Shown piece by piece: positions 4,121 to 11,500 of a stretch of DNA of 64,000 nt (position 1 is the first letter of the stretch; every line of letters starts with the position of its first letter). A program made the translations under genes and the position numbers. The notes beneath the pieces are model-generated. The model saw only the letters and a program-made list of their open reading frames with translations, was not told where the DNA came from and made no database searches. Source of the stretch: Nostoc sp. B(2019). Its GTDB lineage: Bacteria > Cyanobacteriota > Cyanobacteriia > Cyanobacteriales > Nostocaceae. The DNA is taken from assembly GCF_010091925.1 (NCBI RefSeq), contig NZ_WVID01000003.1, positions 248,001 to 312,000 of the forward strand, read 5' to 3'.

Positions 4121-4432
4121 CATTTTTGTTATCCTAGGGGCTTTTTATCCTCTAGTTCTACGAGTTCTTAATTCCCCGTAGATCCGACTATATTTTCTAC
4201 TAAAGATTAAAAGTATCATTAGTAGCCGGAGACTCGTGGAGCCGTTATTAAAAACGGGAGTAAAACCCAGATTATATTCTTTTTACAATTCACATTTATT
4301 TTAAATTGTAAAAAGGTTCACTCTCTAGTCTGTACGGTGTCAAAGGTGCTTTAATCTCTCTGATTACCTCGGTATTCCCAATCGCAGGGTTCACCGATTT
4401 TCTCCGGTGTTTAACGTGAGGCAAAATTACTT
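4121..4432 (-). ncRNA. Group I intron in nrdJ (312 nt, no ORF)
   Basis: Removing these bases joins NPCG to EIIGSNF exactly in frame. P1: the exon end CGTGTGGT pairs with the guide GCCTCACG (4422-4415), placing a U-G wobble at the 5' splice site. P2: CACCG/CGGTG hairpin. P7: CAGACTA (about 4332-4326) pairs with TAGTC inside AAAATATAGTCGG (4195-4183), matching the conserved R and S elements. P8: CTACTAA/TTAGTAG lies directly before S. P9: CTACG/CGTAG follows it. The last intron base is G, as required. A 12-bp peripheral hairpin sits at 4279-4315. There is no homing endonuclease, and a TAA seven bases into the intron blocks read-through. Confidence 0.92.
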
Positions 4433-7825: not shown

Positions 7826-8190
7826 GAAGCTCCGAGGTTCATCAACGAAGCTCCGAGGTTCATCAACGAAGCTCTGAGGCTCACGAACGAAGCTCCGAGG
7901 TTCACGAACGAAGCTCCGAGGTTCACAAACGAAGCTCCGAGGTTCACAAACGAAGCTCCGAGGTTCACGAACGAAGCTCCGAGGTTCACGAACGAAGCTC
8001 CGAGGTTCATCAACGAAGCTCCGAGGTTCATTAACGAAGCTCCGAGGTTCATTAATGGAGTTCAAAGACTCATTCACGAATATAAAAGGCTCGTCCGCGA
8101 GTATCAAAGACTCTCGCGCGAGTATTAAAGACTCATCCGCGAGTATCAAAGACTCGTCCACGAGTATAAAAAACTCGCGCACGAGTATCA
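7826..8190. repeat. 21-bp minisatellite in two sequence families
   Basis: Eleven copies of a 21-base unit (GAAGCTCCGAGGTTCAYVAAC) run from 7826 to about 8056. They pass without a gap into about six copies of a second 21-base family built on GAGTATCAAAGACTCGTCC. Because the period is a multiple of three, several frames stay open. The minus frame would encode heptapeptides (PRSFVNE, then SLILADE) from a TTG codon; no ribosome-binding site or start supports translation. It lies between the nested mobile elements and the 3' end of the conflict locus. Confidence 0.85.
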
Positions 8191-8308
8191 AAGACTTATT
8201 ACAGCAATTTTCATTTATTTAGAAAACACTCTCGCGTTCTTCTTTGCGCCTACCCTGCGGGAACGCCTAAAGGCGAATGCGTGAGATAAAAAATCTTTCG
8301 GTGCTGTA

Positions 8309-8336: not shown

Positions 8337-8580
8337 TATCAAGACTTGCACTCACACTTTCAGCATCCGGTGACTTCAATCGCTGCAAAATCTCTAAAGC
8401 TGGTTGCAAATAGGATATCGCTTTAGTGTATTCACCCTGTTGTTCTGCCAAATGCCCTAACCACCACAGAGTCATTGCTTTGCCTTGGACATTACCAATG
8501 CGTTCATTTATTTCCAAAGACTGATTGTAGAGTGCGATCGCTTCATCCACTTCCCCTTTGTTGGCGTAGATACTCCAGAC
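8317..8580 (-). pseudogene. C-terminal TPR segment cut off by a frameshift
   Basis: This segment continues the TPR array of the CHAT-NTPase gene in another frame: IYANKGEVDEAIALYNQSLEINERIGNVQGKA, then a divergent last repeat (HLAEQQGEYTKAISYLQPALEILQRL) that caps the superhelix, and a natural end. The repeat unit at 8523-8640 is 118 bases long, whereas all its neighbours are 120, so two bases are missing near 8572-8578. It has no start or ribosome-binding site of its own. It is either the lost end of a truncated protein, or is restored by slippage, recombination or a sequencing correction. Confidence 0.8.
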
Positions 8581-11500
8581 AGTGCAACGTCGTCGCTTTG
8601 GTTTGGACATCCCCAATGCGTTCAGTTATTTCCAAAGACTGATTGAAGAGTGCGATCGCTTCATCTACATCCCCTTTGTTGGCGTAGATGATTCCCAGAC
8701 AGTGCAACGTCGCCGCTTTGCCTTGGACATCTCCAATGCGTTCATCTATTTCCAAAGACTGATTGTAGAGTGTGATCGCTTCATCCACTTTCCCTTTGTT
8801 GGCGTAGATATATCCCAGATTGTGCAATGTCACCGCTTGGGTTTTGAAATTACCAATGCGTTCATTTATTTCCAAAGACTGATTGTAGAGTGCAATCGCT
8901 TCATCCACTTCCCCTTTATTGGCGTAGATAGCTGCCAGATTGTGCAACGTCGCCGCTTTGGTTTGGACATTACCAATGCGTTCATTTATTTTTAAGGACT
9001 GATTGAAAAGTGCAATCGCTTCATCCACTTCCCCTTTGTTGGCGTAGATCATTCCCAGATTGTGCAACGTCGCTGCTTTGGTTTGGACATTACCAATGCG
9101 TTCATTTATTTGCAAAGACTGATTGTAGAGTGCGATCGCTTTATCCACTTCCCCTTTGTCGGCGTAGATATATCCCAGATCGTTCAACGTCGCCGCTTTG
9201 CCTTGGACATCTCCAATGCGTTCTTTTATTTCGAAAGACTGGTTGTAGAGTGCGATCGCTTGATCCACTTCCCCTTTGTCGGTGTAAATATATCCCAGAT
9301 TGTGCAACGTCGTCGCTTTGCCTTGAACATTACCAATGCATTCTTCTATTTCCAAAGACTGATTGTAGAGTGCGATCGCTTGATCTACTTCCCCTTTGTT
9401 GGCGTAGATATATCCCAGATTGTGCAACGTCGCCGCTTTGCCTTGGACATCTCCAATGCGTTCCCATAGTTCCAAAGACTGATCGTAGAGTGCGATCGCT
9501 TCATCAACTTCCCCTTTGTTGGCGTAGATACGTCCCAGTTCTTGCAACGTCGCCGCTTTGCCTTGGACATCTCCAATGCGTTCCCATAGTTCTAAAGACT
9601 GATTGTAGAGTGCGATCGCTTCATCAACTTCCCATTTGCTGGCTTTCAGCATTCCAAAATGATGATAAATTGATGCTAATTCTTGTTCGTCTTCTGCGGG
9701 ACAAAGATTTAAAGCTTGCTGGTAATAGTTTAATGCTTGATCAACCTCACCCATTTGGTGTTCACAATAAGCCATTTCTTTAAGAACCCTATGGTTTTTA
9801 GTAATTTCTAAGGTTGATTTGCACAGAGGTATTGCTTCCCGAAATCGACTTTGTTTCCGCAAGTGTTCTGCCAATGAACTAGCTATTTTCACCGCAATTT
9901 CTCCATCCTTCCCCAACAACGCCAAGCGATGAATTTCTAACTTTTGTGTTTCCGTCGCACCTCCCGCCTCCCACCACAGACGATACAAAATTTGTGGAGC
10001 TTGTTTATACAACTCTTCACCCTTGGGGTTTTCTGGAAACTCTAGCAACGGTGACAAAATCCGGGGAACACGATACAACCTCTCTGTGTTGTTGGTGAGG
10101 GTAACTTCCAACAAACCCAAAATTTCAGCGCGTTGCTTATGACTTTCCCAACTTGAGATATCCTCACAAATCGGGGAAATCGCAGCTTGAGGAACAGGTA
10201 ACTCATACACCAACAACTTCCCCAGCATTTGACGCAAAGCTGGAGTTTGCTGCTTCAGCAATACCTCTGCCAAAATATGCTCACGAAATTCCTTTTCCTT
10301 ATCTGCCATCTTTTGCAGAATCATCTCAACTCCCCTCATATACCCCTCGTCGCTTGCGGGGAGGGGTGCCGTAGGCGGGGTGGGGTTCTGGGAATTTTGC
10401 AAAATCTTATCTAACCATTCCAACAGCCGAGGATTTCCATCAGCTGCTGTTTTGGCACGTTCCGGCAAATCTGGCTGAAATTGCCAACTGCCATTAAACG
10501 AATTGAGACGATTATACTTTTTAATTAAATCTGCCCCACCCAAAGCACCCAGAGGTTCGCGGTACAGACGATGATTCAGTTCCGACAATGTGAAATTGTA
10601 GCGACAGGTAATAATTACCTTGTGGGGAAGTTGGGAATTTTGCATCGCCTTCAGCAACGCCAGCAGTACATCCACAACTTGTGGTTGCAAGACATAAACC
10701 CCATTGCGTAATTCCAAATTTTCCTCAAAGTCATCCAGCACAAACACGAAACGCTGTTCTTTGGCATTCAGTCCTTCAGTGAAAAACTTGGTGAGACGCT
10801 GCATCAAGGGTAACTTGCCATTAAGAATTTCATGCCCCCGTTCCGAAGTACATTGTTTAATAAGGGTATTGAGCAGTTTGTCCTCATCCAGTTGCCGAAA
10901 GTTCACCAGCCTGTGATAGCCAACCATCCTTTCCAGAAGTCGCGCCGTCACAGTACTCTTACCCACACCCCCCAGTCCGTGAATTAGTACCCCTAATGAA
11001 GTGCGAATTGCTTTGAGACAACGTTGCAAAGTCCGCCGTCTCCCAACAAACTCAGAGGGTTTCGCCACCCGCACCAGTTGGGTATCGGGATCTAAAAACT
11101 GTTGGTATGCAGGTTCCGGCGCAGAGGGTGGCACATCTCCCAACACTTCCACCAACGCACCCGGACATTCTCCCTGGACATATAACCGCAACAAATGCCA
11201 GTCACGCACATTCTGTTTAAACAACTGCTGGTAAGTGCTAGCGAGTGCTTGGGCTAATTGATATCCGGCTGCCAATTTGCCGTAGAGGTGCGCGGCGGCG
11301 GCTGTAGCTGTCCGATCTTCCACAGGCCGCCCCCAACTTAAAACCGCCCTCGCCCCTTGTGCAATAAGTGCCTCAGCCATAGAAGGGACAGCCCCTTTAT
11401 CTGGTGCTTGTCCAGTCCGACACCCAGATAAAAACACCAATTTGGGAAAGCGAAACCGGAAGACTTCGGCCAGTTCTGCGGCTGTGGTTTCGTGGCGATC

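Follow-up and report, generated by a model that had tools for sequence, protein, structure and literature searches.

A group I intron at the NPCG/E codons of nrdJ in a Nostoc genome, and its relatives at the same site

In the genome of Nostoc sp. B(2019), nrdJ appears to gene callers as two open reading frames (ORFs), which raises the questions of what separates them and how a ribonucleotide reductase (RNR) is made from the pair. The locus was analysed within a window of 64,000 nucleotides, to which all positions refer (Table 1). Read without splicing, the gene gives a 417-aa ORF with a stop two codons into the insert, and a second ORF of 358 aa. An in-frame stop at most seven codons after exon 1 was found in all 81 copies tested, and passages of a 2014 review report such early stops for many group I introns (PMC3984707). 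Removal of the 312 bases, as proposed in a preliminary description of this DNA, joins the exons in exact frame to a protein of 773 aa (...LNPCG/EIIGSNFHC..., the slash marking the insert, which lies in phase 0 between the codons of Gly416 and Glu417). The spliced product matched TIGR02505 (adenosylcobalamin-dependent RTPR) along its full length, with 748.6 bits over residues 8-766 of 773 at a cut-off of 340; by homology, the host gene is a B12-dependent class II ribonucleotide reductase of the RTPR type. In the NPCGE motif of the class II family we take the Cys to be the radical cysteine and the Glu to be catalytic. With these roles assumed, the placement of the insert between the two codons, also put forward earlier, holds to the base at NPCG/E. 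Two tandem repeats were noticed elsewhere in the window. The one at 7826-8200 has a unit of 21 bases, with about 11 copies that match at 94% and a weaker stretch of related units of that length, and overlaps a short ORF encoding EPRSFV-type heptapeptides. The one at 8477-9643 has a 120-base unit in 9.7 copies and lies largely inside a minus-strand ORF of 1210 aa, whose repeats presumably resemble TPR units.

Table 1. Window coordinates of the interrupted nrdJ gene and of the structural elements of its intron.
Feature	Position	Strand	Remarks
nrdJ exon 1	5680-4433	minus	416 codons; ends AAT CCG TGT GGT = NPCG
Group I intron	4432-4121	minus	312 nt, phase 0; starts AAGUAAU, ends AAAAAUG
nrdJ exon 2	4120-3047	minus	GAA ATT ... 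= EIIGSNFHC...; 357 codons + stop
In-frame UAA	4427-4429	minus	second codon past the 5' splice site (GGT/AAG TAA)
ATG, false start of exon 2 ORF	4121-4123	minus	insert ends AAAAATG/GAA
P1	exon 4440-4433 with guide 4425-4415	minus	U-G at 5' splice site (4433/4422); U-G in 39/39
P10	4429-4423 with exon 2 bases 4120-4114	minus	93.7% of cells paired
P3	4407-4402/4231-4226	minus	compensatory change at 6/6 pairs
P4	4397-4393/4373-4369	minus	relatives' alignment
P5	4389-4387/4379-4377	minus	relatives' alignment
P6	4368-4366/4338-4336	minus	relatives' alignment
P6a	4363-4358/4345-4340	minus	relatives' alignment
P7, guanosine-binding helix	4332 + 4330-4326 with 4190-4185	minus	GACUA/UAGUC
P7.1	4325-4323/4241-4239	minus	subgroup IA extra; compensatory at 3/3 pairs
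P7.2 stem	from 4315-4314/4280-4279	minus	subgroup IA extra; two pairs, present but invariant
P8	4225-4221/4201-4197	minus	loop short in this copy
P9	4181-4177/4162-4158	minus	relatives' alignment
P9.1	4155-4149/4140-4134	minus	compensatory at 3/7 pairs; one A-C mismatch in this copy
Terminal G	4121	minus	last base of the intron

At the Rfam gathering score, a curated threshold and no structural feature, there were 0 matches in the 64-kb window. At a lower threshold, RF00028 reached 25.4 of 50 bits (E = 2.9e-4) with misplaced ends on 801 bases around the site, a low score for which the long P7.1/P7.2 stretch is the likely cause. Because RF00028 stayed below its gathering score, relatives were used for the structure. 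Twenty introns, none of them from the window's own clade, served to build a covariance model for the P3-P7 half, which gave 83 bits (E = 1e-17) at 4414-4321; the model's sole other match in the 64 kb had E = 0.94, and the whole genome gave a single match, the nrdJ intron (genome counts from this model are lower bounds owing to stricter filters). The group I fold expected of a covariance search was thus missed by Rfam at its gathering cut-off and recovered by the model of relatives.

For comparative structure analysis, 39 non-redundant copies out of 68 short ones were aligned. The structure from P1 to P9.1, including the P3/P7 pseudoknot, was paired in 98.5% of 2335 cells, with compensatory change at 36 of 60 pairs and two-sided changes in 363 cells, where shuffles gave 103 and sliding of the partners no more than 68; a mismatch within P1 (U-U in the window's copy) was excluded from the pair count. 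The thermodynamic fold had z = -5.8, with none of 100 shuffles as good. P10, in which the guide pairs with the initial seven bases of exon 2, was paired in 93.7% of cells versus 43.5-66.8% when slid, and most of its pairs vary little, with changes on both sides at two of seven. The sequence of P7 is GACUA/UAGUC within the window's clade and GCGUA/UACGC in the majority of other relatives, and a terminal guanosine is present in all 82 extracted copies (see below). In the window's copy the named core pairs are intact, and every core element claimed from the letters alone (P1 with U-G, P7 as GACTA/TAGTC, P8, P9 and the final G) is present. A group I intron at 4432-4121 of nrdJ is thereby confirmed. 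Subgroup IA is recognised by P7.1 and P7.2 between P7 and P3 and by the presence of P9.1; from these elements the window's intron probably belongs to it.

The intron DNA was searched against 388 genomes of the order and matched in 88, from 81 of which 82 copies were extracted. The other seven genomes comprise one with a copy broken by a contig end (L082) and six with weak matches (E 7e-4 to 9e-4), of which four (G035, G292, G303, G014) have model matches in rtcB instead. All 82 copies occupy the same phase-0 NPCG/E site and measure between 244 and 1258 nt; one genome (G156) has two nrdJ loci (L012, L090), both with a same-site intron, of 244 and 254 nt. The long copies carry endonucleases of three kinds. 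The first, of 311-344 aa (L088, L083, L085), matches the Pfam family of phage endonuclease I below cut-off (E about 9e-4) and has a NUMOD3 motif that is above cut-off in L085 only and endonuclease I as its best PDB sequence match (E 0.02); the other two are a GIY-YIG (L067, E 2e-10) and an HNH endonuclease (L069, E 4e-10). L056 and L038 appear, by inspection, to hold broken endonuclease remnants. A search of viral contigs for relatives of the L088 endonuclease gave 15 pattern matches, 0 of them confirmed. The window's intron contains no endonuclease gene, its longest inner ORF being 42 aa, in keeping with its first description as short and ORF-free.

In the rtcB (RNA ligase) genes of L162 and L165-L169 (G282, G292, G014, G035, G303, G321), inspection suggested a related group I intron, at a site of GSLGGG/NHFIEV type to which we presumably may ascribe an active-site role. 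L167 combines partial RtcB family matches with a LAGLIDADG ORF (PF14528, E 1e-8). With the relatives' model, no intron of the rtcB type was matched in the window's genome.

The three exon codons paired in P1, all of which have silent alternatives, read CCGTGTGGT in 100 of 100 intron-bearing genes (82 + 18). In 32 genes uninterrupted at the site, 13 different codon strings occur and CCGTGTGGT is found in five; in a larger table it is found in 6 of 34 uninterrupted genes. Among 20 independent pairs on the nrdJ tree, the signature went with the intron in about 17, there was no difference in about 3, and 0 went against; with intein-bearing rows removed, the figures for the remaining 15 pairs were about 12, 3 and 0. 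In the tree-row table, 5 of 89 intron rows had a missing or other codon string and were counted against the association; these rows are taken as alignments running into the intron, or as lacking the codons. Codons just outside P1 vary across the 82 genes, both before it (AAC 46, AAT 36) and after the site (GAA 70, GAG 12; ATT 43, ATC 34, ATA 5). Since silent sites outside P1 vary and the P1-paired codons are fixed, the pattern favours P1 pairing over a converted tract. Co-conversion by homing was considered as a cause of the fixed codons and is less likely, given the variation at the adjoining silent sites.

The nrdJ tree comprised 141 genes after repeat loci of a genome and rows less than 60% filled had been dropped. 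It showed 24 changes of intron presence, a count that holds for this sample only, whose intron-bearing genes had mostly been selected for their similarity to the window's intron. For both the nrdJ and the intron tree the search was short and many branches have weak support (in the quick search for nrdJ, 36 of 138 inner ones). The introns of the window's type form one clade of 18 (SH-aLRT 99). The window's intron differs from that of L016 by 0.85 substitutions per site at a close nrdJ distance (0.19), and from that of L003 by only 0.08 at a larger one (0.29); over 83 genes, intron and gene tree distances are weakly correlated (Mantel rho 0.25, 0 of 499 permutations as high). In lineage, the window's intron differs from the introns of those nrdJ genes beyond the genus that are closest to its host gene. 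This disagreement between intron lineage and nrdJ tree speaks for horizontal replacement of introns within the site, together with some descent, and we infer a lineage that is specialised on this codon pair, has spread horizontally, and has been gained or lost many times.

Within the window's genus, the intron is present in three of four other genomes and missing from the fourth (G347), whose nrdJ has an in-frame insertion with a LAGLIDADG domain between His423 and Cys424. We read this insertion as an intein from its sequence; no Pfam splicing domain was matched in it at E 1e-3. In ten other relatives, nrdJ has an insertion starting at the catalytic Cys415: the eight that were read at both ends have the form NP/C...HN/CGE without a stop, and both of the two given to Pfam contain an intein splicing domain. 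The intein loci directly before Cys415 are L172-L181; intein-like, LAGLIDADG-bearing insertions before Cys424 occur in L125, L140 and L182-L187, and L181 apparently has both. Like the window's intron, these inteins are selfish splicing elements at most ten residues from the same catalytic Cys; unlike it, they act by protein splicing, and they have no sequence relation to it. An intein at Cys415 would split the exon strand of P1, and in a sample drawn for a purpose other than exclusion, it was found in 0 of 100 intron genes and the intron in 0 of 8 intein genes. Further insertions were seen at nrdJ codons 282/283, about 393 and 554/555 (L087, L072, L039, L083, L085 and others). We regard nrdJ as a multi-site refuge for intervening sequences.

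A search of named genomes with a pattern of P1 and guide returned at least 114 stretches; among the matches listed, 66 are by their titles cyanobacterial and 48 Bacillota, including Neobacillus, Lentibacillus, Anoxybacillus and Paenibacillus. The pattern was also matched by seven viral contigs. NPCG is the motif interrupted in 121 of 121 matches listed, where the pattern demands the PCG codons and neither the Asn nor the frame, and the Bacillota genes whose 3' end was found have the intron at NPCG/EQPL. This wider occupancy of the codon pair, in many cyanobacteria, Bacillota and viral contigs, had escaped the preliminary description. Of three Bacillota exons compared with NCBIfam, two match PRK08115 (976.3 and 916.8 bits, cut-off 854); for the third, PRK08115 and NrdJ_Z remain below cut-off (288 and 240 bits). 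One viral locus (L306, from a 199,763-base record, viral by its collection) combines an RTPR gene of about 57% identity to the window's with an intron of 249 nt scoring 92.8 bits with the cyanobacterial-intron model; another (L311, also viral by its collection) has a gene of the NrdJ_Z type with a 244-nt intron at 31.1 bits. A search of a plasmid collection gave no match, and a phage collection gave two partial matches, one to part of exon 2 (annotated as ribonucleoside-triphosphate reductase) and one to part of the intron (an unannotated phage record).

With E up to 0.01, the cyanobacterial-intron model matched 30 of 42 Bacillota and viral loci (28 of 35 Bacillota loci listed by name, 2 of 7 viral). 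When 8 cyanobacterial, 12 Bacillota and 2 viral introns were aligned together (22 in all; L228 left out for its long insert), one structure was 98.8% paired, with compensatory change at 28 of 44 pairs and 189 two-sided changes versus 58 in shuffles. P1 pairs in this alignment follow for most rows from the search pattern, and P4 and P6 were omitted, as the Bacillota rows were misregistered by MAFFT (10 of 22 rows paired in P4). The endonucleases of L088 and L203, from the two phyla, are homologous, with 29% identity over 308 columns (E 7e-34). In the intron tree, 17 Bacillota introns form one group (support 98); with this single group, the tree gives no case for recent transfer between the phyla.

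Could the introns of Cyanobacteria and Bacillota have arisen independently at this site, sharing a guide because the NPCG codons are conserved? The 12 of 42 Bacillota and viral loci without a model match speak for this, some of them having other core types with the same guide: in L210, L219 and L276 (Bacillus spp.) and the viral contig L309, an insert of 176-186 nt with a different core lies at NPCG/E. We nevertheless consider it unlikely, as the whole core of the main type aligns across the phyla in the 22-intron alignment, P1 pairs following there from locus selection, and the long copies of both phyla carry the homologous endonucleases. We lean, with some reserve, towards a single group I lineage specialised on NPCG/E that would have crossed phyla (Cyanobacteria, Bacillota) and class II families (RTPR, NrdJ_Z), occurs in viral contigs, which are probably its vectors, swaps three kinds of endonuclease, replaces sister lineages at the site, fixes silent codons of the host by its P1, and has inteins as competitors for the same ten codons.

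Group I introns generally follow a two-step mechanism that requires a guanosine. In the nrdJ transcript, the guide would pair with the exon bases CGUGUGGU to form P1, and a guanosine bound in P7 would attack behind the U in the U-G pair. Exon 1, its end now free, would then attack behind the intron's terminal G, with P10 providing the alignment, and NPCGE would be restored. From the sequence we infer both the catalysis by the nrdJ intron and its efficiency in the cell, through which it would splice itself out in this way and so restore the RTPR. With a probability of about 0.96, the best explanation of the locus is a self-splicing group I intron, probably of subgroup IA, at NPCG/E, which is an endonuclease-free member of a mobile, site-specialised lineage.

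A single nrdJ is present in the genome (7.43 Mb, 99.99% complete), its two matches being the two exons, and there was no match to PF02867 (large subunit), PF00268 (class I small subunit) or PF13597 (class III), which matched 11, 7 and 6 of 14 control genomes, respectively. PF02867 misses the RTPR type, the window's own gene included, and is uninformative on it, so that the statement of a sole RNR rests on the nrdJ search and the three Pfam searches together. As no other RNR was found, splicing is probably essential, and without it no functional RNR should be expected.

A regulated switch would gate this only RNR by splicing, for example, at high guanosine nucleotide supply or dNTP demand. Such a role would suit an intron that interrupts, at the catalytic codons, the one RNR found, and the guanosine that group I splicing needs; no conserved added domain was seen, however, the peripheral regions vary most (39-copy alignment, by inspection), and relatives including the same-genus G347 are without the intron, hence without a general regulatory need, which leaves a switch quite improbable. 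That the intron is a decayed relic in a dying or silent nrdJ, now split, is extremely improbable: the low Rfam score and the one mismatch in P9.1 agree with decay, but the core pairs are intact, both exons are full and open, the intron is kept in three of four congeners examined, and loss of function should be lethal with no other RNR found.

Equally far-fetched are two genes whose products assemble as separate polypeptides, the second started at the ATG that ends the intron; both ORFs are open, the second with an ATG, and passages of one paper describe a split RNR that works as pieces in phage Aeh1 (PMC3653736), but a strongly constrained RNA fold, needless for a spacer, lies between them and the ATG is not conserved. 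The last three intron bases in the 82 copies are CTG in 54, ATG and TTG in 11 each, AAG in 5 and TAG in 1, by which the ATG is ruled out as a functional start. Ending only 11 of 82 copies, it matters for annotation alone; of what was first noted about it, the two ORFs seen by gene callers stand, and it is no conserved feature.

The phage RNR introns considered here, which are group I introns of subgroup IA2, lie in class I or III genes, unlike the class II gene of the window. They are described in part of the literature for T4 nrdB and nrdD, Twort nrdE and SPbeta nrdE/nrdF, those of Twort near functionally important residues (PMC3653736). For cyanobacteria, a group I intron in an RNR gene was published in 2007, according to passages of citing papers (Meng 2007, J Bacteriol 189:2150, cited in PMC1995217, PMC12702839 and PMC3984707), and the cyanobacterial RNR cases are termed nrdE in a passage of one review (PMC3984707). 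As far as these passages go, the window's intron, which is likewise of the group I type and interrupts an RNR gene of a cyanobacterium, is no new class, as had been recognised at the outset. The 2007 intron reportedly carries an insertion sequence, to judge by its title, whereas the window's copy is compact and ORF-free. Cyanobacterial tRNA genes also contain group I introns. A further candidate group I intron elsewhere in this genome (L002, G000:C39:22799-23050) differs from the nrdJ intron in scoring above the Rfam cut-off (79.1 bits); it is perhaps such a tRNA intron, and ARAGORN called no tRNA on it.

In the open-access literature searched, no description was found of the lineage in Bacillota, the cross-phylum site, the scale of the lineage or the codon lock. 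What we consider notable is the lineage scale, the two-phylum range and the codon lock, the cross-phylum spread above all. The 2014 review, in the passages at hand, sees little evidence for horizontal intron movement among bacterial species and notes that Bacillus introns are similar to phage ones (PMC3984707). The NPCG/E site offers an unusually dense natural test of intron movement, in which more than 100 copies at one codon pair in two phyla occur alongside empty sites, inteins as rivals, and three kinds of endonuclease together with broken intermediates. A gene interrupted at its active site is easily misread as two genes, and the present case suggests that an essential gene may depend on a ribozyme at its active-site codons.
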